Made by a program: the position numbers and the translations under genes. DNA of 64,000 nt from Betaproteobacteria bacterium. Lineage in GTDB: Bacteria; Pseudomonadota; Gammaproteobacteria; Burkholderiales; Rhodocyclaceae. The notes beneath the pieces are model-generated. The model saw only the letters and a list, made by a program, of their open reading frames with translations, was not told the origin of the DNA and did not search any database. The DNA is taken from positions 1-64,000 of the forward strand of contig JACQYA010000078.1 of NCBI GenBank assembly GCA_016208425.1. Direction: 5' to 3'. Below are positions 1 through 53,706 of this stretch, in pieces (position 1 is the first letter of the stretch; every line of letters begins with the position of its first letter).

Positions 1-132
1 CTCTGCACCGATGGCAGCAAGGCCCTGGCGGCCGCTGCGCAGACCCTTGGCATCGAGCACCACGCCGTGAATCTGGCATCCGGCATCCGCGTGAATGGTG
101 CCTACCACGTCCAGAACGTCAACGCCTACGAC
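1..132 (+). pseudogene. IS1595/ISXO2-like transposase fragment, cut at both ends
   Basis: Frame 1 is open from the window edge and reads LCTDGSKALAAAAQTLGIEH, then a stretch ending HVQNVNAYD. This is the later part of an IS1595-family (ISXO2-like) DDE transposase, where the HVQNVNAY block is highly conserved. The similarity stops abruptly at about base 132; after that the same frame reads unrelated sequence that belongs to the opposite-strand res gene. The 3' end of the transposase is therefore missing and its 5' part lies outside the window. The junction marks a deletion or rearrangement between an insertion sequence and res. Confidence 0.8.
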
Positions 133-2311
133 ACGGTTTGCGCGGTTCGTTGCGAAACCAGTAGCCGACGCTGCCCGAGGTATCGGCGTCGAGCAGGTCG
201 GCAAACGCCCGTTCCGGCCCGTTCAGGTCTTGCGGCATCACGCCATAGACGTTGAGACGCGACTTCTTTACGCCCGCAGGCAGTTCGACGAACTCCGGCA
301 GTGGCGCCGTGTCGAAAACCTCCTTGAACTTCGCCGCACAAGTGCGCGCCGCCAGACGAATCAAGTGGGGGTAGGCCGCCATGATGCGATTCAAGGCACG
401 TTCCAGCCCGGCGTCATTTACGTCGATGCCGCGATGGCCGAACTCTGTTTTCAGTCGATTCAGCAAAGCATCATGCAGGTCGCGCGGGTCGAGATACTCT
501 GCGTCGAACAGCACATTTTGCGCCCGTCGCGCGATTTCCGCGTCGGACAGCCGCGCCTGGATCGACTCAGTTTCCTCAACGCCATCGAAGAGATCGACGG
601 TCTGCCGCGTCACCTTCACCGACTGGCGAAAGCCGGCGTTGAAGACCTTGTCGTCGACAGCGATATTGGCGGCGATGCAGGTCAGCAGAGCGGCGGTCGA
701 CAACGGCAGGCGTTCGGCTCGATAGACGCGCTGCACGCCGTCGCGCAAGGGATAGCGCCGGTTGCCCGAGAGTAGCGGGGCGACAGTGGATACGCCCGAC
801 GCAGACGGGGCGCTGGGCGGCGGTGCCAGCACCAGATGGGTCAAAATCCCGCTCGGCTGCCAGGCGGGCGACACGGCCGTACCCAGCCCGCCGTCGGCAA
901 GGTTTGTTTCCGGTGCCGGCCACGCGGGCGGCGCATAGGGCACCGACAGCAATTGCGCCTGCCCGTTGTGCGTCACCTGGATTTCGTTGCGCCCGGCGAT
1001 CTTCACCACCATCGTGAACGGGCAGACATGCGACAGCTCGCTCTGGATCGCGTTGATCTTTTCGCCGGCCTGCACCAGCCCGCTTTGGTTCGCCGCATCG
1101 GCGAGAAACACATAGCCGTTACGCAGCAGTTCGGGCAGCTTCCTTTCCAGCGCCGACCCCTGCAGGCGGCCATGCACACGCAGGATGCGGCCGACCACCT
1201 GAATGCCGAAATCGGTATCCTTCGCCCCGCGCATCGACACCAGCGTAAAGGCGCGCGGCGCGTCGAAACCCAGCGCCACCGCCACCTTGAATATCAGCAC
1301 TTCCTTTTGTTCGTCGATGGCTACGGCCAGCAAGTCGTCGTTCGGGTCATCGGCCGTGTACCAAGCGATTTTCGACTCCGGCACGCCCAAGGCCGCCAAC
1401 CGCGTGCGGGCTTCTTCCACGGCCGCATTGCTGTTGCCAACCTGCACCAGCATCAACGGCACCAGCCCAATGCCGGCCGCCTGCAAGCCCTGCTTGATCG
1501 CACCGTGCATGCTCCAGCCATCGGCCAGCGCGGTTGCGGCGAAGTCGACCAGTTCCTTCTGATCGTCCGCCGCCAGATAGGCGATGGACTTGATGCCGTC
1601 CTTGATGAGTCCCGCGTCCACCGCCTCCTTGCGGCTCACCGTAATACGATGCAGATGGCCGATAGCGGTAGCCTTCTTGAATTTTTCCACGTCCCGATCG
1701 TCGGGCGTCGCGGTAATCATCAAGGTGAATTCGGGGCGCAAGGTCTCGCGGTAGAAGCGCACCGCTTCGGCCGCTTTGGTGAAACTGTGATGCGCCTCAT
1801 CGACCACCGCGCCAATGCGGAAGCCGTCGGCGCGCAATTCCGCGATCAAGTCGTCCAGCGCCAGCACGAACTCGCCGCCGCTGCGCACCCGGCGCGTTTC
1901 CTTGCTGGCCGCCGCCACCGATGCCCAGGTGGCGACGAACACATCGCCGCTCCTGGTGCCCCGCGTCTGGCGGTCGCTTTGCAAGTCGCGCACGCGCAAG
2001 CCAACGAAAGTGGACTTGATCGCCCCCTTGGCCTGCTCGACCAAGCCGGCGAAGGGCGTGAACCAGAACCAGACGATGCGCGCGTTGGCGTCCCTATCCG
2101 GTGCGGCAAAAGTCTCGGCGATCATGCCGGCCATCAAGGTTTTGCCCGAGCCGGTTGGCGCTTCCAACAATAGACAACCGTTGAAGGCCGTCGCTGCCGC
2201 GCGGCTGGCGTCATCGCCAGCCTGGCGCAACTGGCTTTCGGCGTAACGGAAGATTTCCAGCGCGTTAGCGACCGCCTCGCGCTGATAGCCCTTGGGTGCC
2301 GGTGCGCTCAT
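119..2311 (-). CDS. res: Type III restriction enzyme Res subunit, truncated before its nuclease domain
   Basis: DEAD/DEAH-box helicase subunit of a type III restriction-modification system; together with Mod it would translocate or slide on DNA and cleave it. Walker A APTGSGKT is at residues 51-58, DEAH at 171-174, TATPDD at about 200-205 and motif VI QVVGRILR at 371-378. The family normally continues past the block NEPRKP into a C-terminal PD-(D/E)xK nuclease of roughly 100 or more residues. Here the protein reads NEPRKP and then CRRR and stops, because the DNA switches to IS1595-type transposase sequence at about 131-136. The 730-residue product keeps the motor but lacks the nuclease. Its start overlaps the stop of mod by 4 bp, so the two are translationally coupled. 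Restriction is probably lost while modification may persist. Helicase assignment is firm; loss of function is inferred. Confidence 0.85.
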   Translation of the reverse strand: MSAPAPKGYQREAVANALEIFRYAESQLRQAGDDASRAAATAFNGCLLLEAPTGSGKTLMAGMIAETFAAPDRDANARIVWFWFTPFAGLVEQAKGAIKSTFVGLRVRDLQSDRQTRGTRSGDVFVATWASVAAASKETRRVRSGGEFVLALDDLIAELRADGFRIGAVVDEAHHSFTKAAEAVRFYRETLRPEFTLMITATPDDRDVEKFKKATAIGHLHRITVSRKEAVDAGLIKDGIKSIAYLAADDQKELVDFAATALADGWSMHGAIKQGLQAAGIGLVPLMLVQVGNSNAAVEEARTRLAALGVPESKIAWYTADDPNDDLLAVAIDEQKEVLIFKVAVALGFDAPRAFTLVSMRGAKDTDFGIQVVGRILRVHGRLQGSALERKLPELLRNGYVFLADAANQSGLVQAGEKINAIQSELSHVCPFTMVVKIAGRNEIQVTHNGQAQLLSVPYAPPAWPAPETNLADGGLGTAVSPAWQPSGILTHLVLAPPPSAPSASGVSTVAPLLSGNRRYPLRDGVQRVYRAERLPLSTAALLTCIAANIAVDDKVFNAGFRQSVKVTRQTVDLFDGVEETESIQARLSDAEIARRAQNVLFDAEYLDPRDLHDALLNRLKTEFGHRGIDVNDAGLERALNRIMAAYPHLIRLAARTCAAKFKEVFDTAPLPEFVELPAGVKKSRLNVYGVMPQDLNGPERAFADLLDADTSGSVGYWFRNEPRKPCRRR

Positions 2312-3987
2312 GGCCGTCCTCCCGCAGCGGCTGAGGAACGCGCGCCAAAACGATTGACCAGAAACGCTGGAATCGGCTCAAAGGCGACGCGCGGATCGGT
2401 AAGTCGCTGGGCAAGCAAGAACGGTTGCCACGAATACACCACCGCCTGCCCGGCGGCGTGTATCGCGGATTGCACGGCGTCGAGCGCTGCGCCGGTCAGC
2501 TTGGGCAGGTAAATCACCAGGCCGCGCTGACCGTTCGCGGTTTGTAGACTCAAATCGGCCCGATACGGCGTCAGCGCCACATCGTGTATCAATTGCAGCG
2601 CCGCCCATATTTGTCCGTGCTGGATGCTGCGGAATACCGTTGCCGCCGGTATCCGCCGGCAGCGCAGATAGGCGAAACCGCCGCCCAAGCCGTCAACCGC
2701 TTGCTCCTTCTTGTTGGTGTAGCCGGCGATGACGCGCCTTACCCGTTCGGCGCACACGTCGCGGCAGAGGTTTTTGTCCTTCGCCTCGTCTGTCGCCTCG
2801 GTGCTGGAAACGAGGATAAAGCGGCGATTGCCGCCGTCTTCCTTGTTCAAGTTCAGCACCGCCTGTGCCGTGGTGCCCGACCCCGCGAAAAAATCGAGGG
2901 TAATGGCATTTGGATCATCGATCATCCGCAACATGCGCTCGATCAACTCGACAGGCTTGGGCGTACTGAACAGGTCGGACGTGTCGAAGATATCGCGCAA
3001 CATGGCTTTTGCCTGGCGCATCGTCGGCAAGTCCGCCCAGATGGTGGGGTACGGCCGAACCGGGGTGTCAGGGGCAAACTCTCGGGCATAGGGTTCCCAC
3101 ACCGTTGCGCCAAGTTTCTTGCGCTGCTTCCAGATCAGTGTGCCCGCTACGCGATGCTTTTCAACGCCATCTCTTCCCATCGCCCAGCGCGCTTCTTCGC
3201 CGTTGTCGTGAATCGGCAAGACTTCGTTGCCGTCTGGGTCGATAATCGGAAAGAACATCGTTGGCCGGTCGCGCCGCAAGCTGTTCTTGCCGTTCTTCTT
3301 AACCAGACGATCACGGAATCGCGAACCATCTGCCGCAACCTTGTAAGCGTCAACAATGTCGGGCGCGGAAAGAGGCGCAAAGCGGGCTTGCTCCTTCCTC
3401 AAGGCATAGCAAAGAATGAACTCGTGGTCTGGCGTAATAGGAACCTTGTTATCGTTCGGGCTATCGACCTTGCGCCAAACAAAGCTTGCTACGAAATTCG
3501 AGGCACCGAATATCTGCTCCAACAGCAAACCGAGATGAAACGCTTCGTTGTCGTCGATGGAAACGAAGATCACGCCGTCCTCGGTCAGCAGTTCCTTCGC
3601 CAGTTCCAGCCGGCGATACATGAACTCCAGCCACTTGGAATGGCGGTAGTTGTCGTCCTTGTCGACAAAGCGGTCGTTGTAGATGAAATCGCGGTTGCCG
3701 GTGTTGTAGGGCGGGTCGATATAGATGCACTTGACGCGGCCGGCGTGGGTCATGCGCAGATAGCGCAGCGCGTCGAAGTTGTCGCCTTCGATAATCAGGT
3801 TTTGCTGTGCTCCGGCACCGCACGACAACCCGGCATCCCAATCCAGCGCGACGAAGTCGTTATTGATCGAGAGGTCGTGCGCGATCTCGTCGCGTTCCCA
3901 GACCAGCCCAAAGCGCGGCCGCTGGTCGCGCTCGCGCAGCAGGCGCAAGAGCTGCTCGCGGGAGTAATCGTCGTAGTTGTCGGCCAT
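2308..3987 (-). CDS. mod: Type III DNA adenine methyltransferase Mod subunit
   Basis: Site-specific DNA-methyltransferase (N6-adenine) of a type III system; it also provides target recognition for Res. The catalytic DPPYNTG is at residues 91-97 and the SAM-binding FAGSGT at 367-372, so the order (DPPY before FxGxG) is that of beta-class methyltransferases, as expected for Mod. The region between them, roughly 180-340, should hold the target-recognition domain, so the recognition sequence cannot be read from homology. At 559 residues it is within the family range, and all main motifs are intact. It follows a HicA-like gene and overlaps res by 4 bp, which indicates one leftward operon from about 5244 to 119. 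Confidence 0.92.
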   Translation of the reverse strand: MADNYDDYSREQLLRLLRERDQRPRFGLVWERDEIAHDLSINNDFVALDWDAGLSCGAGAQQNLIIEGDNFDALRYLRMTHAGRVKCIYIDPPYNTGNRDFIYNDRFVDKDDNYRHSKWLEFMYRRLELAKELLTEDGVIFVSIDDNEAFHLGLLLEQIFGASNFVASFVWRKVDSPNDNKVPITPDHEFILCYALRKEQARFAPLSAPDIVDAYKVAADGSRFRDRLVKKNGKNSLRRDRPTMFFPIIDPDGNEVLPIHDNGEEARWAMGRDGVEKHRVAGTLIWKQRKKLGATVWEPYAREFAPDTPVRPYPTIWADLPTMRQAKAMLRDIFDTSDLFSTPKPVELIERMLRMIDDPNAITLDFFAGSGTTAQAVLNLNKEDGGNRRFILVSSTEATDEAKDKNLCRDVCAERVRRVIAGYTNKKEQAVDGLGGGFAYLRCRRIPAATVFRSIQHGQIWAALQLIHDVALTPYRADLSLQTANGQRGLVIYLPKLTGAALDAVQSAIHAAGQAVVYSWQPFLLAQRLTDPRVAFEPIPAFLVNRFGARSSAAAGGRP

Positions 3988-4019
3988 CGGGGAAGGGCGA
4001 TCAGGGGCGCGGAATCGAC

Positions 4020-4313
4020 TCAGGCAGCCGGTGCCTCAACGGCGCCGCACTCGATCAACTTGTGCTCGTAGGTATCGCGATCCAGCGGGCAATCGATGAG
4101 TCGGTCGAAATCTTGCCGCGTGAGTTTGCATTGGCGAGACATCATGCCCAGCAGACTGTCGTCGAGTTCCTTCGCACCGTGGCTGGTCTTCGTAAAGACC
4201 TTCGTCTTCTTGCCCGCCGTGGTGTAGTAGTTGAAATAATGGTGATCGCCTTCCTTGCGCTGAAAACCTTTTTTCTCCAGGCTTCTTTCCACATCATTGG
4301 GCTTACGCGCCAT
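4020..4313 (-). CDS. HicA-like (YcfA-type) small protein in the type III operon
   Basis: 97-residue protein starting MARKPNDVERSLEKKGF; a start four codons upstream is possible, but this ATG fits the family. The segment GFQRKEGDHHYF resembles the HicA/YcfA dsRBD-like fold, in which a Gly-x-His-His region carries the catalytic His of an mRNA interferase. A following Thr/Lys-rich strand (KTKVFTKTSHG) also fits. No HicB antitoxin lies next to it. It overlaps the upstream unknown gene by 11 bp and precedes mod by 32 bp, so it is embedded in the restriction operon. Whether it is a toxin, a nucleic-acid-binding accessory factor or a control protein is not decidable from sequence. Confidence 0.6.
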   Translation of the reverse strand: MARKPNDVERSLEKKGFQRKEGDHHYFNYYTTAGKKTKVFTKTSHGAKELDDSLLGMMSRQCKLTRQDFDRLIDCPLDRDTYEHKLIECGAVEAPAA

Positions 4314-5244
4314 TGGCAACCTCACTGAACGCGGCGAGCAAGGATTGCTTCATCTTGATTGCCTCGCCGTCGAGCGAGTCGTTATCGGCTAGTGCGTATT
4401 CCTGCCAAAGCATGCCGATCTGCTCATTCAGTTCGCTGACCAACGCCTCGCGCGTGCGCGCAAAGGCGTCGATACCCAAGGCAGCATCGGCCACGCAGAT
4501 GAGTTGCTGCGTCTCGTCGGTTGCCGGTTCCAGCGTCACACCTTGTCTTGCCTTGAGCACCCCAGCACCAATCTTGACCGTGTCGACCGTTATCGGCGAC
4601 AAATCCAGTTCGACGCATTCCATTTCGCGTTTGGTCGGCGGGTAGAAAATCGTGACGACCCGATGGGTGAAATTGATATTGGTGAGTTGGCCGGTGACGA
4701 CCTGAGAAGCTGCACGTTCCGCAACCGGCACAATCGCGTCTCGAATGATCGTTCCGCTGTCTGTATTTAGCTCGCCGAACTCGACATTGCTGGCGTCCCA
4801 CAGCTTGAGACGCCATTTGTCATCGGCGCGAGGGGACATTCCCCTTATTGCTTCCAGTACACGGTGACGTAGCCCTTGGTCTGGCAATGCGGCGCCGATC
4901 TGCGCCGTATCGCGCCGGGTAATGCCCTCGATCATTTTGTGGAAAACATCAAGAGCCGCCGTGACATGCTCGGCCAAGAGGTCAGTGCCGCCCAATTCGA
5001 GCGGAACGGCATAGCAGCCCGGCTCCGGCAAACGACATACCAACTGAAAACGGCTACGGGTAGCGGGAGAAATCCTTGCCCGCTCACGGATCGTTCGCCC
5101 TTCGACGTACGTTCCAATTAGCTCGAAGGCTCGCTGAGAATTACTGAGAATCTGCGCCAACACGGCTGCCGGAACAGCATCGCCGCTCTGGGTGCCGCCC
5201 TCGATGTGCAAGCTAAACGAGGTTTTCCCGTCGGGGTTGGTCAT
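4303..5244 (-). CDS. Uncharacterised protein, first gene of the type III restriction operon
   Basis: 313-residue soluble protein with no signal peptide or membrane segment and no nuclease, helicase or methyltransferase motif that I recognise. The N-terminus (SFSLHIEGGTQSGDAVPAAV) is followed by a helical region and a middle part rich in beta strands (INFTHRVVTIFYPP). It ends with an acidic helical tail. It overlaps the HicA-like gene by 11 bp and is the first gene of the leftward operon leading to mod and res. The position suggests an accessory or regulatory role in this restriction locus; that is inference from context only. Confidence 0.65.
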   Translation of the reverse strand: MTNPDGKTSFSLHIEGGTQSGDAVPAAVLAQILSNSQRAFELIGTYVEGRTIRERARISPATRSRFQLVCRLPEPGCYAVPLELGGTDLLAEHVTAALDVFHKMIEGITRRDTAQIGAALPDQGLRHRVLEAIRGMSPRADDKWRLKLWDASNVEFGELNTDSGTIIRDAIVPVAERAASQVVTGQLTNINFTHRVVTIFYPPTKREMECVELDLSPITVDTVKIGAGVLKARQGVTLEPATDETQQLICVADAALGIDAFARTREALVSELNEQIGMLWQEYALADNDSLDGEAIKMKQSLLAAFSEVANGA

Positions 5245-11421: not shown

Positions 11422-11437
11422 ATCGTTTGATTATACG

Positions 11438-12295
11438 TCATAGGCTCTCGAACCATGCCTTATCAATGCTGACGCGCTCAACAAGTTCGGTTTTTACGCC
11501 AAGCGCCAACTCTTTCAGTTTCTCTGCAAGTTCATCGCCGTCGACAAGGTCGATCGGTGGCGCACCGTCTCTTGTGGCTTCCTTGACAGCGGCGGGCGTG
11601 AAAGACCCCGTCGTAATGAACAAACCTTTGTCGGCACGGCCAACCATAGCACCACGAAAGTCACGAACCTCGCCGGCAGCAACTGAGCCTTTGTAACGCT
11701 TGCACTGGAAGAGAACGTGAAAGCTCATGAAGCCGTGAATACGGGCAATGCCTTTTCCGTCAATTCCGCCATCGCCCGTGCGGCCTGTCACCTCAACATG
11801 AATGAACCCGGATTCGCGCAAGATGCGCTGAACCAACCGCTCAAAGCCAGCAGGGTCGAGATTTTGAGTGAGGACGGCGGAAAGCTTGTCTTTCCATCCT
11901 TCCTCTTCAGACAATTCCCGTGCGGTTTCGTCAGGCGGTCGCTTCTTCGGGGCATCCTGTTTGTCGAGAGCGCGAACAAAACGAACGACCTCTGCGGAAT
12001 CTACAGTTTCAAGCGTCTTTGCTTTTTCCGTTAGCGACCAGACTCCACGGCTTGAGTTTTCGAGCAATCCGTACTTTCTGAGATACGTTCGCGCCCAGGC
12101 AAGGCGATACCCGACTTCGGTTTGACTGCTTTTTTCGGGGTCGTGAAGTTGCGCCAGAATCTCCTCTGGCAAGCCCGTGACCTCCACGGTCTTGGCGTAA
12201 ATCTCTTCAATTGATCCTGAGCCTCCGAGCTTCCGTATCGCCTCCAGAAGCGGGTTCATCAGATCGTCATATGTGGGGAGCGTGGTCATGGGCAT
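11438..12295 (-). CDS. mrr: Mrr-family modification-dependent restriction endonuclease
   Basis: 285-residue type IV restriction enzyme that cleaves methylated DNA. The N-terminal about 90 residues form the Mrr_N winged-helix domain (YDDLMNPLLEAIRKLGG), thought to sense modified DNA. The C-terminal catalytic domain carries the PD-(D/E)xK variant GDGGID at 174-179 and QCKRY at 197-201, so both catalytic motifs are present. Base composition is lower in GC than in the flanking genes. The stop lies 17 bp before the start of the kinase fusion, and an attC-like site lies just upstream of the start; both suggest acquisition. A start two codons downstream (MTTLP) is equally possible. Confidence 0.9.
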   Translation of the reverse strand: MPMTTLPTYDDLMNPLLEAIRKLGGSGSIEEIYAKTVEVTGLPEEILAQLHDPEKSSQTEVGYRLAWARTYLRKYGLLENSSRGVWSLTEKAKTLETVDSAEVVRFVRALDKQDAPKKRPPDETARELSEEEGWKDKLSAVLTQNLDPAGFERLVQRILRESGFIHVEVTGRTGDGGIDGKGIARIHGFMSFHVLFQCKRYKGSVAAGEVRDFRGAMVGRADKGLFITTGSFTPAAVKEATRDGAPPIDLVDGDELAEKLKELALGVKTELVERVSIDKAWFESL

Positions 12296-12313
12296 CGTGG
12301 TGTCAGTGGTAAC

Positions 12314-12382
12314 GTATAACGTTTGAATTAACCGGCTGACGCGGCTTTATCGCGCCAGTCCGTGTTGAATGACGTGTTGGAC
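12314..12382 (-). other. Possible integron attC site upstream of mrr
   Basis: Read on the minus strand, a 69-bp imperfect palindrome starts with GTCCAAC (an R'' core, RYYYAAC) and ends with GTTATAC (an R' core, GTTRRRY with one mismatch). The central arms GACTGGCGCG and CGCGTCAGCC pair around a short AT-rich loop. The conserved spacer words TTCATTCAA-like and TTAATTCAA-like resemble classical attC sites. The orientation places mrr as the next cassette after this site. No second attC is seen after mrr and no integrase is in the window. Confidence 0.5.
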
Positions 12383-12422
12383 GAAGCCGCTACGCGGAGG
12401 AACAAGCAACGCCAAGCTGGAT

Positions 12423-12671
12423 TCACAATTGATCTCCCACTCTGCCGATGGATTGTTCCGTCACGAACTGAGAGGTCATTTTACGATCTGATGTTACTTC
12501 TACTTTGTCAGATTGAATTGTAAGGCTTAAGTAGTGATTTCTAGTGACAAGCATTGTACGGCGTCTATATTGGGTTCGTGAGATGCGCCGAAGCTTGGAA
12601 AGAGAGTCGATCATGAGAGAGCGCGAACTGAGCTTCCCTCGGTATTTCATCTGCCAAAGGGCGAGTTTCAT
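12423..12671 (-). CDS. Small unknown reading frame before the attC-like site
   Basis: 82 codons, Lys/Arg-rich start (MKLALWQMKYRGK), no recognised family. It is AT-rich compared with its neighbours and ends 40 bp before the attC-like site, where a cassette gene would be expected. Its 5' end meets the decayed IS3 element, so it may be truncated. It could equally be a chance frame. Confidence 0.25.
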   Translation of the reverse strand: MKLALWQMKYRGKLSSRSLMIDSLSKLRRISRTQYRRRTMLVTRNHYLSLTIQSDKVEVTSDRKMTSQFVTEQSIGRVGDQL

Positions 12672-13558
12672 GCTACCAGTTTTTCCTGATGCTGCGCTCT
12701 GATCCAGTTCTCCAGAAACTGGACAGGCGACCTGTCGCCGGGGGTCGAATGCCGCCGTTTCCGGTTGTAGGAAACCTCGACGTATTCAAAGGCCGTCGCC
12801 TCGATTTCGGCGTGTGTGGCGTAGCGAGCCCCGTGCACCCGCCCGTTCTTGAAACTGTTGGACCGGCTTCCGGCCGGCGCGTTATCCCGGCAGTTCCCTT
12901 TTCTGCTCATCCGTCAGGTCATGCCGCAAGCCTCGAGCTTGCCCCGAAAGGCATGGCTGGCGTACCGGCCGCCCCGGCCGGGGCGGCGCGGCAGCCCCGG
13001 CGCCGGTTTCTTGCGGAACCGGGCCATGGCCGGCGCATCCGCCACGATATCCGCCGTCATGCGCGGCTTGGGCGGCCGGCCGGCGGCTTCGCGGTCGAAC
13101 AGATCGGGCACGATGGGCTGGTAGAGCCGGCCTTCATCGGCACGCAAGCAGGTTGTGCCCGGCGTCCGGACCTGGTTCGGCGCCGTCGGCGTGAAGTTTC
13201 CGGCAAGAAGGTTCTCCGCCACCGGCGGGCCGTGCTCCGAGCCCGCCGCCACCTTGTGGCGCCGCTTGTGGCGGGCGCGGATACCGTTGTCGCGCACCGG
13301 CCGCCCGGCTCGTCCCTCGCTGGCGGGGAAGCCTCTGGCCCGCGGTTCCCGCACCGTGCGCGGGCTGCCGTAGGCGCCTTTGGGTCCGGCGTGGATGGCC
13401 CGGATGAGCGCCGGCATCCGGCTGTCGGCCAACCGCTGGCAGTCCGGCGCCCCGCCCCGCTTCCGGGCCCGGTAGCCGCCGACGCTGACGCCGGGCACGC
13501 CACATATTTCGATCAGGGGAAACGACTTGCCTTGCCCGGCAACCCGGGCGTGCTTCAC
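12668..13558 (-). pseudogene. IS3-family transposase OrfB, interrupted by a stop codon
   Basis: Starts at a GTG overlapping the OrfA stop and reads the IS3 OrfB pattern: AYGSPRTVREPRARGF, then NGIRARHKRRHKVA, the integrase core, and a C-terminus FEYVEVSYNRKRRHSTPG. Between GMT and MSRKGNCRDNAP, where the family has Cys-Ser, a TGA occurs at 12914-12916, so the frame is broken into 12914-13558 and 12668-12910, both in the same frame. Many conserved residues are also changed (for example TGDITYL has become a non-matching segment), so the copy is old and inactive. Confidence 0.82.
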
Positions 13559-20321: not shown

Positions 20322-21814
20322 CTACATGGTGTGCTGCTTGGGAAAAGCGTTGCAAAAGCGCAGCGATTCCGGGTAGGGGAAGAAATCTTCGACGTGGCCA
20401 TCGCGTATCTTTTGTTGTGCGCCGCGCCAGAATTCCGCGTTGAGCAAATCGCGGTGATATTTGAGAAAAGCTTGGCGCACCTTCGGCGATCCGAGCAGGA
20501 AAGTGGCAAATTCCTCGGGAAAGACATCGTTCTTCGCGACCGAATACCACGGCTCGCTCGACATCTCCATGTCGGGATAAGGCGCCTCCGGGATGACGCG
20601 GAAGTTACAGTCGGTCATGTATTCGATTTCGTCGTAGAGAAGCGGTTTTTCGGCAGCGAGACATGCGAAAACTCCAGCGTGTCCGCCATCCGACCGACGC
20701 GGTCGACCTGCTTGACAAGCAGGTACTTCGCTTTGACCGTGTCCCTGTCCATCTCCTTTGACGCGCCGAACACGTCCTTGATGATCTTGAAGACGTAAGG
20801 GTAAGACGGCAGCGTAAACACCAGCATGACCAGCCCGCGAATTCCCGGCGCGACGATGAACTTGTCTTCCGAGTGCCGCAGATGCTGCATCAGGTCGCGC
20901 AGAAACAGCGTCTTGCCCTGCTTGCCCAGGCCGAGCATGGTGTATAGCTCCGAACGCGGCTTGTTGGGCATGATCGTGCGCAGGAACTGCACGTAGCCGG
21001 ACGGCACCTCCATGTCGACCATGAAGTAGGCGCGCGACAGCGAGAAGAGCAGGCTGATCCGCCAGGCGTCGAGCAGGATCGTGTCGAGCACGAGCTTGCC
21101 CTCTTCCGTATGCAAGACCGGGATTGCGAAGGGGTATTCCAGATGCCCGTTCACCGCCTTGCCGAAGATGTAGGCGGCTTTGTTCCGGTAGAACGCCGAG
21201 TAAAGCACCTGGATCTGCGCGTTGGCCTCCGCCTGCGGCCAACCGCCGAGCGACTTTTCGACCGTCCGCATGACGTAGTCGACGTCGCGGCCGAGATCCT
21301 CGAACGGGCGCTGCCAGTCGAAATCGAAGACGATCTGCGTGATCGTTTCGCGCAGCCCGCGCTGCAAGGGGTAATAGCTCGAATAGGTCGGCGGATACGA
21401 GTCGATATATTCGGTGGACGCCGCCGGGCGGGTGAAGATGTAGTCGTTATGAAAGTAAGTGCGGTGCAGGATTTTGGTACACACCGAGTTAAAGAACGTC
21501 TCGGCGAGTTCCGGCTGCTTGTGGTTGATGAGCTGGCCGATATACAGCAGTTTCAGTTGCTGCCAGGTCTCGTTGTCGAGCGAGCTGGCACCGAACTGCG
21601 CGCAGAGCAGGTCGGTCGTTTCGTCCACCCGGTCGTCGTAGGAGCGGATACGTTCGCGAACCGCCGTTTGCACCCCCTTCCAGTCGGCGGCCTCGAACAG
21701 GATCTTGGCTTGCCTGCCGTAGTGCCGGATCAGCCGATAGTGGCGGTTGAAGCCGTCGATCATCGCCTCGGCAATACGTTTGGCGAGCGGATTCTGGGCG
21801 GTCGAGATGTCCAT
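20322..21814 (-). pseudogene. aceK: Isocitrate dehydrogenase kinase/phosphatase, inactivated by an internal deletion
   Basis: Starting at MDISTAQNPLAKRI the first about 390 codons match AceK, including the nucleotide loop [13 protein letters not shown] and the Lys region [10 protein letters not shown]. At about 20640 the reading breaks: [12 protein letters not shown] is followed by a few foreign residues and a stop at 20615. The C-terminal segment [19 protein letters not shown] continues in another frame to 20322 with the normal end ([15 protein letters not shown]). Roughly 85-90 residues are missing between the two, including the catalytic-loop Asp/Asn and the DYD metal ligand region. The deletion length is not a multiple of three. 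The rest is very well conserved, so the loss is probably recent. It is divergent from icd, its usual target. Confidence 0.9.
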
Positions 21815-22099: not shown

Positions 22100-23329
22100 A
22101 TGAGCGAAAGCCTGATTAAAGTCCCGCACGGCGGCCAGAAAATCATTCCGGGGCAAGCTATCCCGGACAATCCCATCATCCCCTTTATCGAGGGCGACGG
22201 CATCGGCGTCGACATCACGCCGGTGATGATTAAAGTGGTCGATGCCGCCGTCGAAAAAGCTTACGGCGGCAAAAAGAAGATCCGCTGGATGGAAGTCTAT
22301 GCCGGCGAGAAATCCACACAGGTCTACGGTTCGGATGTCTGGCTGTCGGCCGAGACCTTCGCCGCGCTCAAAGAATACTCGGTATCGATCAAGGGGCCGA
22401 TGACGACGCCGGTCGGCGGCGGCATCCGCTCGCTCAACGTCGCCCTGCGCCAGGAGCTCGACCTCTACCAGTGCGTGCGCCCGGTACAATACTTCAAGGG
22501 TGTCCCGTCGCCGCTGAAACGGCCGGAACTATGCAACATGGTCATCTTCCGCGAGAACACGGAAGACATCTACGCCGGTATCGAGTGGGCGCACGGCACC
22601 GATGCCTGCAAGAAGGTCATCAAATTCCTACAAGACGAAATGGGCGTCAAGAAGATCCGTTTCCCGGAAAGCTCGGGCATCGGTATCAAGCCGATCTCGG
22701 TCGAAGGCACCGAGCGCCTGGTGCGCGCCGCGATCAAGTACGCCATCGCCAACAACCGCAAGTCGGTGACGATCGTGCACAAGGGCAACATCATGAAGTT
22801 CACCGAAGGCAACTTCCGCGATACGGCCTATGCCTTGGCCAAGCGCGAATTCGGCGGCGCAGAGATCGACGGCGGGCCGTGGCTCAAGTTGCCCGGGGGC
22901 ATCGTCATCAAGGATTCGATCGCCGACGCCTTCCTGCAACAGATCCTGCTGCGCCCGGCCGAATACGACGTGATCGCCACCACCAACCTGAACGGCGACT
23001 ATATCTCCGACGCGCTGGCCGCGCAGGTCGGCGGCATCGGCATCGCGCCGGGCGCCAATATTTCCGACCACTATGCCTGTTTCGAGGCGACGCACGGAAC
23101 GGCGCCAAAGTACGCCGGCCTGGACAAGGTCAACCCCGGCTCGCTGATCCTCTCGGCGGAAATGATGCTCCGCCACCTGGGCTGGACAGCCGCCGCCGAC
23201 CTGATTATCAGGTCGATGGAAGCGGCGATCACCGACAAGGTCGTCACTTACGACTTTGCGCGTTTGATGGAAGGCGCCACCGAGGTGTCCTGTTCGGCCT
23301 TCGGCGACGCGATGATCGCGCGCATGTGA
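22100..23329 (+). CDS. icd: NADP-dependent isocitrate dehydrogenase
   Basis: 409-residue TCA-cycle enzyme converting isocitrate to 2-oxoglutarate. The start at 22100 has GGAG 6 bp upstream; longer in-frame starts lack family similarity. The substrate motif [13 protein letters not shown] is present, and its Ser111 is the equivalent of the Ser that AceK phosphorylates in E. coli (Ser113). Other conserved blocks include [16 protein letters not shown], the [13 protein letters not shown] segment and HGTAPKYAG near the NADP site. A rho-independent terminator follows at 23371. Confidence 0.96.
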
Positions 23330-23432: not shown

Positions 23433-23683
23433 ATGACCGGAATTTCCGGGCCGCTGACCGGCCTCAAGGTTATCAGGTGTTATGGAAAAGCTGGGGCTGG
23501 GACGAGTGGTCGGCGCTCAACCCCGGCCTCGTCATGTTGCGGTTGTCCGGGTTCGGTCAGAGCGGCCCGCTGTCCGGGCAACCCGGCTTTGGCGCCATCG
23601 GCGAATCGATCGGCGATTCCATCGCCGCGCTGGGGTACGGTGCGGCGCAGATCGCGGCGCCGCGCGCGGCAGGAGCCATATAG
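23433..23683 (+). pseudogene. Remnant of a CaiB/BaiF-type (family III) CoA-transferase gene
   Basis: Three short pieces of one family are run together. MTGISGPLTGLKVI matches the N-terminus. MEKLGLG followed, after a frame change, by WSALNPGLVMLRLSGFGQ matches the centre. IAALGYGAAQIAAPRAAGAI matches the C-terminus including the stop. The family is about 400 residues long, so most of the gene has been deleted in at least two steps. It is non-functional. Confidence 0.75.
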
Positions 23684-39749: not shown

Positions 39750-39825
39750 GCGGTTTCCAGACGGCTTCAACATGACCATCGCAGCATGAGAAAATCGACC
39801 TCCCCGATTCTGGAAATATTGACGC

Positions 39826-40473
39826 ATGAAACCGCAAGCGTTTGATCGAAGCGAGCATGTTTATAGAAACGAGGCCTTTGTCGAACTGGTCAAAGATGCG
39901 GTCAGGTTCTTTAATGGCACGCCTGTCCACACGCTTCCCCCACCAGAATCATTTCTTGGAACAGGGGTGTACGCGCTCTACTACACAGGTAGTAATCCTC
40001 TGTACAAACGATACGCCGAGCTAAACCGCCTTTCATACGGTTATCCCATCTACGTGGGCAAAGCCGTTCCCAAAGGATGGAGGCAAGCCCGCTCATCTGA
40101 CAACGCACTAAATCAATCTCGCGAACTAATCGGTCGCCTGCGAGAGCATGGAAGGAGCATTACCCTTGGTGCCGAACTGGCGCTGGAGGATTTCATGTGC
40201 CACTTCGTCATTTTTGAAGAGGAGGGCTCAGACATGATCAGCACGATTGAAGCCGCCCTCATTAAACTAAATAAACCGCTCTGGAATACTGCCGTTGATG
40301 GATTTGGAAATCACGACCCCGGAAGCGGTCGATACGAACAAGCCAAATCAGATTGGGATGTCATCCACGAAGGCAGGGCTTGGGCGAATAAGTGCAATGG
40401 GAAACATGCCGAAAAAAGCATCATAATTTCCAATATTCGCCTTCATCTCAAGAAGTTGGGGTCGGCGCAATGA
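39826..40473 (+). CDS. Eco29kI-like GIY-YIG type II restriction endonuclease
   Basis: 215-residue restriction enzyme with the GIY-YIG fold. The motif residues are seen as GVY (Tyr49) and YVG (Tyr76). Arg104, His108, Glu142 and Asn154 also fall at the positions that I recall as catalytic in R.Eco29kI. The core YPIYVGKAVPKGWRQAR is characteristic. Eco29kI cuts CCGCGG; whether this homologue has the same specificity is not shown. The stop overlaps the methyltransferase start by ATGA. GC content is far below that of its neighbours, as expected for a recently acquired system. Confidence 0.88.
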   Translation: MKPQAFDRSEHVYRNEAFVELVKDAVRFFNGTPVHTLPPPESFLGTGVYALYYTGSNPLYKRYAELNRLSYGYPIYVGKAVPKGWRQARSSDNALNQSRELIGRLREHGRSITLGAELALEDFMCHFVIFEEEGSDMISTIEAALIKLNKPLWNTAVDGFGNHDPGSGRYEQAKSDWDVIHEGRAWANKCNGKHAEKSIIISNIRLHLKKLGSAQ

Positions 40474-41639
40474 AAACTTTTGAGATTTTTTCAGGTGCAG
40501 GCGGTCTAGCAAAAGGCTTGGAGTTGTCAGGATTTGAGCATACAGCCTTCGTTGAGTTTAATAGGCATGCGTGTGAGTCGCTTTCTGAGAATTTCGACCC
40601 GACGCGAGTCTTCTTTGGCGACATAAAAGATTTTGATTTAGACAGCCTTGAGGATATTGACATTGTTGCAGGGGGGCCGCCATGCCAGCCATTTTCACTG
40701 GGTGGCAAGCACAGAGCCGACCAAGACAACCGGGACATGTTTCCATATGCCATACGTGCTATCGAAAAACTCGCACCAAAAGCATTTGTATTTGAAAATG
40801 TAAAAGGCCTGCTTCGCCAAACTTTTTCTGAGTATTTTGAATACATAATCCTCAGATTAAGTTACCCGGATTTTATGTCTGGTAATGACACCAACTGGAA
40901 AAGTCACCTTGATGAACTTCGCAATATTGGCAGCCTTTCTTATGCAGGGAAAAAATACAACGTTCAGTTCAAACTAATAAATGCCGCAGATTATGGCGTA
41001 CCACAGACACGAGAGCGGGTTGTGATTGTTGGAACAAGAGCAGACATCTCATTGCCTTGGTCATTCCCTATTGAAACACACTCAGAAGATAGGCTTCTCT
41101 GGGACATGTACGTAACGGGTGAATACTGGGTGCGCCACAAAGTACCTAAGCTATTGCAACCTGATTTAGACGCACCACTGAGAGAAAGAATATCTCGACT
41201 AAAAGGCAAGTACGGAATGTTTGAGCCAGAATTATTGCCATGGCAAACCATGCGGGATGCTTTATTTGATACGCCAGACCCAAAATCAGATCATGGAATA
41301 ATCGACCACATATTTCGGGATGGCGCGCGACCGTATCCAGGGCATACAGGTAGCGATTTCGATTGGCCGTCAAAAACAATCAAAGCTGGCGGGCACGGGG
41401 TTCCGGGGGGGGAAAACATGATCCGCTTCAATGATGGAAGCGTTCGCTACCTAACGACCTTTGAAGCAAAACGAATTCAAACTTTTCCTGATGATTTTGT
41501 CATTAAAGGCGCGTGGGGTGAGGCTATGCGTCAAATTGGGAACGCGGTACCTGTATTACTTGCAGAAAAAATAGGCTTAAAGTTAGCGGGGCAACTAAAA
41601 GCGTTTAGCCCGGAAATCAACGCGGGCGCTGCGCGATAA
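40470..41639 (+). CDS. DNA (cytosine-5) methyltransferase of the Eco29kI-like system
   Basis: 389-residue C5 methyltransferase protecting host DNA from the preceding nuclease. Motif I FSGAGG is at 7-12, the catalytic GGPPCQPFS has Cys72, ENV is at 109-111, QTRERV at about 180-185 and the C-terminal IGNAVP motif X at about 362-367. All core motifs are intact. The target-recognition region is about 190-330. It is AT-rich like the endonuclease gene and overlaps it by 4 bp. The pair lies between the SpeE-like and FAD genes of one conserved cluster. Confidence 0.94.
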   Translation: MKTFEIFSGAGGLAKGLELSGFEHTAFVEFNRHACESLSENFDPTRVFFGDIKDFDLDSLEDIDIVAGGPPCQPFSLGGKHRADQDNRDMFPYAIRAIEKLAPKAFVFENVKGLLRQTFSEYFEYIILRLSYPDFMSGNDTNWKSHLDELRNIGSLSYAGKKYNVQFKLINAADYGVPQTRERVVIVGTRADISLPWSFPIETHSEDRLLWDMYVTGEYWVRHKVPKLLQPDLDAPLRERISRLKGKYGMFEPELLPWQTMRDALFDTPDPKSDHGIIDHIFRDGARPYPGHTGSDFDWPSKTIKAGGHGVPGGENMIRFNDGSVRYLTTFEAKRIQTFPDDFVIKGAWGEAMRQIGNAVPVLLAEKIGLKLAGQLKAFSPEINAGAAR

Positions 41640-41697
41640 AGGCGCGTGGCGCCGCTTACTGACCGAAGAAAATTGCCCGGCAAAGAAGTGACTTTCC

Positions 41698-43347
41698 ATG
41701 CATCGGCGTGATTTCCTGAACGCGTTGACTGTGGTTGGCTTTGCCGGCTTATCCGCATGCGACAGTTCGTTCAAGCCACCTTTGCCGCCCGGCGAGCTGT
41801 TCGGCGCTTCGTCAGACCTTGGTCATCGTCTGCGCAAAGCGGATTTTCCGCCGCCTTCCGAAACGCGCCACGTCCCCGTCGCCATCGTCGGCGCCGGCAT
41901 CGGCGGGTTGGCCGCCGGATGGAAGCTGGCGAAATCGGGATTCGGCGACTTTCTGCTGGTCGAGATGGAGGGCGAACCGGGCGGCAATTCGCGCGCCGGC
42001 CGCAACGAGACGAGCGCCTATCCGTGGGGCGCGCACTATCTGCCGCTGCCGGCGCGCGAGGCGACAGCGGTGCGCGAACTGCTCGCTGAACTCGGTGTGC
42101 TGCAAGGCGATCCGCGCGCCGCAAGACCGCGCTACGATGAGCGCTACCTCTGCGCCGCGCCGCAGGAGCGCCTGTACCGCAACGGTTTCTGGCAGGAGGG
42201 CGTGCTGCCGCACGGCGGCCTCGATCCCGCCGAGCACGGGCAGGTCCGGCGCTTTCACGAGCTGATGGACGGCTTCAAAAAACGGCGCGACGCGCGGGGT
42301 CGACGCGCTTTCGCGCTGCCGATGGCGCTCTCCAGCCACGATGCCGACCTGCTCGCGCTAGACCGGATCACGATGCGCGGCTGGTTGCTCGCGCAGGGGC
42401 TGGATTCGCCGCGTCTGCACTGGTACGTGAACTACGCTTGCCGCGACGATTACGGAACGGGCAGCACCGAGGTATCGGCCTGGGCGGGCATCCACTATTT
42501 CGCGAGCCGCGACGGCGAGGCGCTGGGCGCCGGCGGCGACACCGTGCTCACCGCGCCGGAAGGCAACGCCTGGCTGGCGCGGGGCATGGCGCAGAGCATC
42601 CAGAACCGCGCGGGGGACCGGCTACTGACCGGCGCGTTTGTCTGGCGCGTCGCCGACAGCGGGCGGCAAACGGAAATCGACCTTTGGCTTTCCGCTGAGG
42701 CGCGAACTGTCAGGCTGGTCGCCGACCAACTGATCTGGGCCGCACCGCTGTTCCTGCTACCGCATGTCTTCGTCGGCCACGACGCGCTGAAAGCCGCCGC
42801 GCGCGGCATGAGTTACGCGCCGTGGCTGGTCGCCAACCTGACCCTCTCGCATTTCCCCGACGACCGGTTCGGTGCGCCGCCGGCGTGGGATAACGTGCTC
42901 TACGACAGCCCCGGCCTCGGCTATATCGTCGCCACGCACCAGCAGATGCGGCTGCGGCCGGACGCCACCGTGCTGACCTATTACCGGGCGTTGAGCGAGA
43001 TAACGCCGCAGGAAGGCCGCGAGATGCTGCTCGACGCCTCGCGCGAATCGTGGGCGGAACAGATACTCGCCGACCTCGAAAAGCCACACCCGAACATCCG
43101 GCAGGTCACCACCCGCCTCGACGTATTCCGTAACGGCCACGCGATGGTGCGCCCGCTGCCGGGAACGATATGGGGCACAGGGGGCAAGGCGCGGCAGCGT
43201 TTTGCCGCCGACCGGCCACGCCTGCGTTTCGCGCATGCCGACGCGAGCGGTTTCTCGTTGTTCGAAGAAGCCCAGTATCGCGGCGTGCTGGCTGCGGAAA
43301 GAACGTTGCGCCGCCTCGGTGTACGATTTGCCTCGTCGCTGGCCTGA
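41698..43347 (+). CDS. Tat-exported FAD/NAD(P)-binding oxidoreductase lipoprotein
   Basis: 549 residues. The N-terminus MHRRDFLNALTVVGFAGLSAC has a twin Arg and a lipobox-like LSAC (Cys21), suggesting Tat export and lipid anchoring. The dinucleotide motif VAIVGAGIGGLAAG is at 61-74, followed by the acidic VEMEGEPGGNSRAG, as in flavin amine oxidase/protoporphyrinogen-oxidase-like proteins. It lies 16 bp before the SpeD-like gene. In relatives it commonly follows the SpeE-like gene directly. An exported amine oxidase acting on the cluster's product is plausible but unproven. Confidence 0.82.
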   Translation: MHRRDFLNALTVVGFAGLSACDSSFKPPLPPGELFGASSDLGHRLRKADFPPPSETRHVPVAIVGAGIGGLAAGWKLAKSGFGDFLLVEMEGEPGGNSRAGRNETSAYPWGAHYLPLPAREATAVRELLAELGVLQGDPRAARPRYDERYLCAAPQERLYRNGFWQEGVLPHGGLDPAEHGQVRRFHELMDGFKKRRDARGRRAFALPMALSSHDADLLALDRITMRGWLLAQGLDSPRLHWYVNYACRDDYGTGSTEVSAWAGIHYFASRDGEALGAGGDTVLTAPEGNAWLARGMAQSIQNRAGDRLLTGAFVWRVADSGRQTEIDLWLSAEARTVRLVADQLIWAAPLFLLPHVFVGHDALKAAARGMSYAPWLVANLTLSHFPDDRFGAPPAWDNVLYDSPGLGYIVATHQQMRLRPDATVLTYYRALSEITPQEGREMLLDASRESWAEQILADLEKPHPNIRQVTTRLDVFRNGHAMVRPLPGTIWGTGGKARQRFAADRPRLRFAHADASGFSLFEEAQYRGVLAAERTLRRLGVRFASSLA

Positions 43348-51135: not shown

Positions 51136-51139
51136 GTAT

Positions 51140-52879
51140 ATGCAATTCAGCCCCCAGCAGCTAAATTTTGACCTGTTTGGCGAATCGGTTTTCCCGCATT
51201 CGTCGATGGTCGCTGCTGCGGTTGAAAAACTGTCTGTAGCTACAGGAACCGAATCTCGCGGGGCGATCTTTACACGTGCCGAGGTAGTGGATTTCATCCT
51301 CGATCTGGCTGGCTACACCGAGGATCAACCGCTCCATCAAAAGCGGCTTCTGGAACCTTCGTTCGGTGGTGGTGATTTTCTGTTACCGGCAATCGGACGA
51401 TTGTTGGCAGCGTGGAGATCATCACAACAAGCAAGAAGTGTCGTCGAAGCATTAGGCGGTGCAATTCGCGCTGTCGAATTGCACCGCAAGACCTTTTCTA
51501 CTACCCGCGCAGCAGTGATCGAACTGCTCAAGCGAGATGGGATAGAGGATAAATCCGCAGCAACGCTTGCTGATCGTTGGCTTGTGCAAGAAGATTTCCT
51601 TCTTGCGCCACTTCAAGGGCAATTCGACTTTGTTGTCGGGAACCCTCCCTATGTTCGCCAGGAGCTAATTCCGGCACCGTTATTGGCCGAATACCGCCGC
51701 CGCTACCCGACGATGGTTGACCGTGCCGACATCTACATCCCGTTTATCGAGCGCTCGCTGGTCGCGTTGGCGGAGGGAGGAAGCCTCGGCTTTATCTGTG
51801 CGGACCGCTGGATGAAAAACCGCTATGGCGGACTGCTTCGTCACCTTGTGGCCGATCGGTTTCACCTGAGAATCTATGTCGATATGGTGGATACACCAGC
51901 CTTTCGCTCCGATGTGATCGCCTACCCGGCCATCACGATCATCAGTCGGGAAACCCCCGGTGCGACCCGCATTGCCCATCGCCCAGCCATTGACCGGGCA
52001 ACGCTGGCAGTCCTTGCCGACGCGCTTCTGGCGCGGACTCTACCGAAAGACGTTGGGCTGGTGCGCGAACTGGCCCGCGTCACGAATGGGTCGGAACCTT
52101 GGTTGCTTGGATCTTCGGATCAGATGGCGCTGATTCGCCGCCTTGAAAAACAATTCCCGCGCTTGGAAGAAGTGGGCTGCAAGGTGGGCATCGGCGTAGC
52201 AACCGGCGCGGACAAGGCCTATATCGGCGACTTCGACACGCTCGACGTGGAGCATGATCGCAAGCTGCCGCTAGTGACAACGAAAGACATCGTGTCAGGC
52301 GAGGTGCAATGGCGCGGTCAAGGCGTCATCAATCCCTTTGCCGACGGTGGTGGCCTTGTCGAATTGGGAAACTATCCGCGCCTGCGCCGCTACCTGGAGG
52401 CAAGACGGGAGGTTATCGCAGGCCGTCACTGTGCGCGGAAGACTCAAGCCAACTGGTATCGCACGATTGACCGTATCACCCCGGCGCTGGCATTAAGACC
52501 GAAGCTCCTGATTCCCGACATTAAGGGCGATGCACATATTGTATTTGAGAGTGGCAAACTGTACCCGCACCACAACCTTTACTACGTCACGTCCGACGAA
52601 TGGGACTTGAGGGCCTTGCAAGCAGTGTTGCTTTCAGCCGTCACCAGTCTATTCATGGTGACCTACTCAACCAAAATGCGTGGCGGATTCATCCGGTTTC
52701 AAGCGCAATATCTCCGTCGCATCCGTATTCCGCAATGGGAAAATGTCTCGACAACGTTGCGGACAGAACTGGCGGAGGCTGCGACAAAGCGGGATATTCA
52801 AGCGTGCAACCGTGCGGCATTTCAACTTTTTGGCCTTGGTAACGAAGAACGATCTCTTCTGGGAGGCAACGGAGAATAA
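51140..52879 (+). CDS. PaeR7I/XhoI-like type II adenine-specific DNA methyltransferase
   Basis: 579-residue N6-adenine methyltransferase. Motif [11 protein letters not shown] is at 71-80 and the catalytic NPPYVRQ at 168-174, the order of gamma-class enzymes. The C-terminal about 300 residues carry the target-recognition domain with the [10 protein letters not shown] and HHNLYYV words typical of the Eco57I/PaeR7I group. It pairs with the following endonuclease, which fixes the type. GC is lower than in glgP and glgB. It is probably transcribed from the glycogen operon promoter. Confidence 0.9.
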
Positions 52880-53671
52880 ATGGCCCTTGATCTTGTCGAT
52901 TACGAACAAAAAGCACATGAGGCTGTAAAAGCGTTCTGGGGAAACCGTGATACAGCAAGACAAAAACAGATCGAGTCCGGAAAAACCGATCAGGGCGAAC
53001 GCGCTGGCGTAACCGCAGGCAAAAACATGGACGGATTTCTGGCTTTGGCGCTCGACATCGTGCGGGCCAATGGACTTGCCCATGCCGAGATTCATCAGAA
53101 ACGGGTGATGTTGACACTGCCCGGCTACTTCAGGCCGACAAAGCTATGGGATCTTCTCGTTACCTACAAGGGCGAGTTGATTGCGGCCATTGAACTGAAA
53201 AGTCAGGTAGGTTCGTTCGGAAATAATTTCAACAATCGCACCGAAGAAGCTATTGGCACCGCGCACGATCTTTGGATGGCCTACCGTGAAGAGGCTTTCG
53301 GCAAGCAACCACGACCTTTCGTCGGCTGGTTGATGATGGTTGAGGATGCCCCGAAGTCCAGATGTTCGATCAAGAATGCGTCACCGCACTTTCCTGTTTT
53401 CAAGGAATTCAAGGGGGCGTCGTACCTCATACGGTATAACTTGCTCTGTCAAAAATTGGTAAAGGAACAGCTTTACACCGCTGCCGCCCTCATCACGTCG
53501 CCCCGCAGTGCAGCCGACACAGGGGAGTTTTCAGAAATGTCGGCGATGACGGGACTCAAGGCATTGGTTACGGCGCGGGCGGGCCACGTTGCCGCCGAGG
53601 CCGCCAGACTTGCGGTGAAAATGCGGCCAACAAATCGTTTCAGCAGACGCGCCAAAGCGGTGCGCCGCTAA
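52880..53671 (+). CDS. PaeR7I/XhoI-family type II restriction endonuclease
   Basis: 263-residue nuclease whose ATG directly follows the methyltransferase stop. It matches the XhoI family: [20 protein letters not shown], then [18 protein letters not shown] and [14 protein letters not shown]. The PD-(D/E)xK residues are Asp91, Glu105 and Lys107. XhoI and PaeR7I cut CTCGAG; the same target is likely but not proven. The C-terminal tail is basic and longer than in PaeR7I. glgB begins 35 bp downstream. Confidence 0.93.
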
Positions 53672-53706
53672 TTTTAAATAACATCCCCCACCTTGGATCC
53701 CATTCT

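Follow-up and report, generated by a model that had tools for sequence, protein, structure and literature searches.

Does the bacterium behind this DNA still control the competition between isocitrate dehydrogenase (ICD) and isocitrate lyase (ICL) through AceK, the kinase/phosphatase of ICD, or has it lost that control? The question is raised by an interrupted aceK in a stretch of 64,000 nucleotides, here called the window, on contig C37 of a draft genome (3.54 Mb, 199 contigs, ~96% complete, 0.5% contaminated). The gene order is coaBC, a radC-like gene (named by eye), glnS, pyrF and, on the minus strand, aceK, followed by the divergent icd (Table 1). In named collections, it is most closely related to lake metagenome bins and to Candidatus Accumulibacter, Propionivibrio and Rhodocyclus, which places it in the Rhodocyclaceae, referred to below as the family. 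We favor a real deletion of aceK in this lineage, to which we assign a probability of roughly 0.7; this weighing is a judgement and not a computed value.

Table 1. Positions of aceK, its parts and the neighboring features in the window
Feature	Position	Strand	Evidence or remark
aceK, whole broken gene	20322-21814	minus	
aceK 5' part, codons 1-392 plus 2 bases, frame intact	20637..21814	minus	Regulatory domain and N-lobe of the kinase domain; NCBIfam NF002804, 531 bits, residues 6-394
Deletion junction	20636..20637	minus	268 bp absent relative to intact relatives; 1 bp (C) common to both sides
aceK 3' part, codons of Tyr476-Asp477-Glu478 to the stop	20322..20636	minus	Out of frame with the 5' part; PDB AceK 476-570; PF06315 167-256
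ORF of the truncated product, 399 aa	20615..21814	minus	Final 6 residues out of frame
icd, NADP-dependent homodimeric isocitrate dehydrogenase, AceK substrate	22100..23329	plus	Intact, normally conserved; TIGR00183, 683.7 bits
CaiB/BaiF-type CoA-transferase remnant	23448..23680	plus	Internal deletions and frame change; family name by eye and from the intact homologue

The aceK deletion and the residues lost with it

The first-pass annotation had described aceK as broken by a deletion that removed about 85 to 90 codons, among them the catalytic loop and the metal-binding Asp, with loss of the frame. Comparison with relatives bears this out. The AceK kinase domain is split into two pieces in different frames (PF06315 positions 1-78 at 20633-20866 and positions 167-256 at 20367-20636), and between them 268 bp are missing in comparison with 76 of the 106 relatives' loci measured. 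Against another 25 loci, which belong to more distant relatives with a small length difference, the gap is 280 bp. Because 268 bp corresponds to 89 codons plus 1 base, the reading frame is lost: instead of one continuous frame of ~590 codons, the 5' frame reaches a stop at 20615-20617 after 399 aa, leaving the 3' part out of frame. A short microhomology (TTCTC/TTCTAC) had also been proposed at the junction. We rejected it as the mechanism of the deletion, since that sequence is not located at the breakpoint, where the two sides have only the single base C at 20637 in common.

What remains of the gene is readily aligned. The 5' part is up to 87% identical in amino acids to the AceK of other Rhodocyclaceae, and its residues 13-393 align with E. 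coli AceK residues 8-386. The N-terminal regulatory domain is present, as indicated by NF002804 and the PDB alignment (residues 6-394). In the alignment to E. coli AceK, the 5' piece ends at residue ~386 and the 3' piece begins at Tyr476. Residues ~387 to 475 are therefore absent, and Asp457, Lys461, Asn462 and Asp475 all fall inside the deletion. Among them are the metal ligands, a residue that contacts phosphate and the catalytic base; Asp457, Lys461 and Asn462 belong to the catalytic loop, and Asp475 is a metal ligand. The nearest intact relative (locus L118, genome G030) is gap-free through the deleted stretch and has all four. Mutations in the Asp457/Asn462/Asp475 motifs abolish the kinase activity of AceK (PMC3747045), and in E. 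coli AceK the Asp457Ala change abolishes the phosphatase activity too (PMC6591243). Since the deleted residues include those essential in the E. coli mutants, both activities are predicted to be gone. While the lesion is read directly from the sequence, it is by analogy with these mutants that we infer that any product of the broken gene would act neither as a kinase nor as a phosphatase.

Both parts of aceK are free of other stops and frameshifts, and the window contains no N characters. A second copy, which would overturn this picture, was looked for with the AceK kinase domain across the whole ~96%-complete genome; neither a copy nor another piece of aceK was detected. The gene thus carries a disrupting lesion with no intact copy elsewhere in that genome, as is expected of a pseudogene. 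Together, these results point to a single event: one very recent 268-bp deletion, joining ends with one base in common, would have taken the catalytic loop (Asp457-Lys461-Asn462) and the metal ligand Asp475, shifted the frame and abolished both activities. A single lesion that inactivates a well-known gene is ordinary in kind; what is unusual here is the gene context.

Age of the probable loss and the possibility of an artefact

The remaining codons of aceK still look constrained. Over the 496 alignment columns that are left, the branch leading to the window's gene has a dN/dS of ~0.11, compared with 0.07 and 0.10 in two intact relatives from a neighboring genus; these are rough estimates, obtained by a counting method with dS of ~0.5 or higher. 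At 225 columns that are otherwise invariant in amino acid, the window's gene has 2 private substitutions, and intact genes have 0 to 8. Relaxed selection, which is expected only of an old pseudogene, was seen by neither measure, as the dN/dS resembles that of intact genes. Rough as they are, these values would leave only a small part of the window's branch unconstrained. Because the codons are still constrained, the loss is either very recent or not a property of the living population. The first-pass annotation had called the loss recent on the grounds that all other parts are well conserved, and the comparison with relatives, the constrained codons and the lack of any other frameshift or stop agree with it. 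On the evidence of these codons, the locus would be the product of a very recent loss, or else an assembly or population variant and not a true pseudogene.

A pristine remainder is equally expected from an assembly or minority-variant error. The organism would still have an intact aceK if the deletion had arisen in assembly or if the consensus had picked up a minority variant. Such an error would fit a draft genome in 199 contigs, the full conservation of the rest of aceK and the rule, described below, that icd and aceA are accompanied by aceK in 127 of 128 genomes of the family. The junction itself argues against it. Collapse of a repeat by the assembler does not explain the junction, because there is only 1 bp of homology there, and with no repeat at that point a k-mer assembler needs real reads that span it. 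Moreover, the window contains no N, and the other adjacent ORF pairs that we tested in it resemble normal distinct genes. The gene beyond icd is also eroded in a manner that resembles real deletion. Of the CaiB/BaiF-type CoA-transferase, only codons 104-112, 112-151 and, weakly, 378-406 are left, as found by tblastn with the intact 406-aa protein of locus L036 as the query. In Accumulibacter an intact CoA-transferase lies near icd (406 aa in L036, with close relatives in L044 and L047). Deletion-driven erosion thus seems to have acted within the same few kilobases as aceK, on the far side of icd. We consider an artefact unlikely, although it is the most serious of the competing explanations. 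A real deletion is favored because the lesion is single and clean, no second aceK was found, the region has no N, and the neighboring CoA-transferase has been eroded by deletions as well.

The large gaps that we inspected give no sign of a general excess of broken genes in the window: most of them hold restriction-modification, IS-like or other low-GC genes, and not pseudogenes. Restriction-modification genes are abundant. A type III-like restriction subunit and a DNA methylase, followed by a HicA-like small ORF, occupy 119-4839. At 11422-13558, a restriction-endonuclease-like ORF (Mrr-type by eye) lies beside an ORF with an HTH_21 domain (IS3-type by eye). Two low-GC islands, at 39750-41781 and 51136-53706, carry a DNA cytosine methyltransferase-like ORF (by eye) and an Eco57I/TaqI-like methylase.

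The 399-aa product could also have been retained as a noncatalytic regulator, consisting of the N-terminal domain and the N-lobe, that binds, for example, ICD or nucleotides. Its reading frame is open and constrained and includes the whole N-terminal domain. However, the 3' part is equally constrained, which indicates a recent lesion of a whole gene and not selection on a truncated form, and no other genome in the family survey keeps the 5' part alone. We therefore regard a retained regulator as very improbable.

ICD, the glyoxylate shunt and the co-occurrence of aceK

In the window's genome, isocitrate lyase (aceA, 436 aa, contig C83) and the malate synthase ORF (aceB, contig C87) are both intact, so that the absence of a glyoxylate shunt is rejected as an explanation for losing aceK. 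Replacement of ICD by the monomeric isocitrate dehydrogenase was also ruled out, as the genome has no match to that enzyme. The phosphorylatable ICD is the only recognized NADP isocitrate dehydrogenase of the genome. Since aceA and aceB are intact, the competition for substrate between ICD and ICL that AceK governs in E. coli can still occur. With no monomeric enzyme, the likely consequence is an ICD/ICL branch point without phosphorylation control.

The first-pass annotation had reached a similar conclusion, namely, that the organism should be unable to down-regulate ICD by phosphorylation. Its core holds, as the comparison with relatives and the lack of a second copy support the loss of kinase and phosphatase, but two of its arguments, the microhomology and the retention of Ser111 in icd, fail. 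The serine is indeed present, within RSLNVALRQ. It has no evidential value, because icd genes from genomes without aceK carry the same serine, as we found in four genomes of the family (L156-L159, from G046, G101, G134 and G166). All 68 full-length icd sequences that we examined have the equivalent of Ser111, a residue that contacts isocitrate and is thus presumably kept for catalysis. Nothing striking emerged as a compensating change in icd: the only deviation at a column conserved in >90% of sequences is Glu364 to Ala, and the relatives have a median of 1 such deviation.

In E. coli, aceK is required for growth on acetate (PMC4999502, PMC3603453). On the model of E. coli, phosphorylation of ICD would not be available to this organism for steering isocitrate into the shunt, and an effect on growth on acetate, as in E. 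coli (PMC4999502, PMC3603453), is plausible because aceA and aceB are intact. After the loss, the cell would retain a phosphorylatable ICD, isocitrate lyase and malate synthase. It would then either depend little on the shunt when growing on acetate or be in an early, perhaps transient, state of the loss.

We surveyed 200 genomes of the family for these genes. Because the species surveyed are unequally related and some of their genomes incomplete, the counts describe a pattern and not independent events. The combination of icd, intact aceK and aceA was found in 127 of the 200 genomes, and icd and aceA without intact aceK in only one, the window's genome. Among the 128 genomes with both icd and aceA, it is thus the sole exception, and for this reason a real loss would be unusual. 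Five genomes have icd with neither aceK nor aceA, five have icd and aceK but no full match to aceA, three have an intact aceK without icd, and 59 have neither icd nor an intact aceK. In this family, aceK is nearly always lost either along with icd or in genomes that lack isocitrate lyase. Among 120 sampled genomes from the order, aceA was present in all 39 tested genomes with icd and aceK and in 4 of the 41 with icd but no aceK (one of the four with a split aceA). In the wider order, icd and aceA without aceK are therefore rare yet present (4/43), and one of the cases is a near-finished genome (G253). A literature search of partial coverage returned no report of aceK decay in this group.

The survey also bears on whether the locus is at an early stage of losing the whole aceK-icd pair, as in ~30% of the family, in which case icd would be lost next. 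This would overlap with a real deletion of aceK as the explanation. Where the pair is lost, the monomeric isocitrate dehydrogenase is usually present: of the 62 family genomes without icd, 59 also lack an intact aceK and 51 carry the monomeric enzyme. One of them, G070, has both genes as remnants. Here, the monomeric enzyme has no match and icd is normally conserved, for which reasons icd is probably needed. We consider incipient loss of the pair improbable.

This relative of Accumulibacter may have an ICD/ICL branch point freed from AceK control, with icd, aceA and aceB all still under selection and a phosphorylatable ICD left without its kinase. We put this forward tentatively, as a possibility at somewhat less than even odds. 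It would be a natural aceK knockout showing what replaces AceK control, and an exception in a family where icd and the shunt are otherwise always accompanied by aceK. The 127/128 rule is in keeping with a need for AceK in every case of competition between this ICD and ICL. Such a need would be put to a natural test by a fresh exception, provided that it is real, in a bacterium related to phosphate accumulators. If the deletion is an artefact, it shows that co-occurrence rules can flag errors in draft genomes.

Comparison with known systems

The window's gene is the same gene as E. coli aceK (PF06315, NF002804; PDB 3EPS and 3LC6), with a clear alignment on both sides of the gap. In contrast to functional AceK, it lacks residues ~387-475 with the catalytic triad and has lost its frame, and it is not a functional member.

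Within the family, aceK has likewise been reduced by deletion in G070 and G082, both of which keep isocitrate lyase. In G070 (L119, 5981-6463), aceK and icd are both short remnants produced by deletion, in a genome that has isocitrate lyase as well as the monomeric isocitrate dehydrogenase. In G082, a single-contig genome, a remnant of aceK codons 450-513 adjoins a monomeric isocitrate dehydrogenase gene split over two frames (L120, 8309-10935). These two genomes differ from the window's genome in that icd is also gone and the monomeric enzyme is present, whereas here icd is kept and the monomeric enzyme was not found. Among relatives with a full locus, G030 is the nearest, and there a gene for a monomeric isocitrate dehydrogenase separates aceK from icd (L118, 9821-12103); neither the window nor the rest of its genome contains this gene.

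Outside the family, G223, G248, G253 and G279 (the last with a split aceA), from other families of the order, likewise have ICD and ICL without AceK. In those genomes no trace of aceK was found, while in the window the broken aceK is still almost whole.

For E. coli without AceK, a split between ICD and ICL set by enzyme levels has been modelled (PMC4999502). In mycobacteria, the ICD/ICL branch point has no AceK, and the shunt is likewise run without phosphorylation of ICD, the split being under metabolite control (PMC4999502). Mycobacterial ICD lacks the AceK recognition elements and is itself under metabolite control (PMC4999502), whereas the ICD of the window is of the AceK-substrate type.
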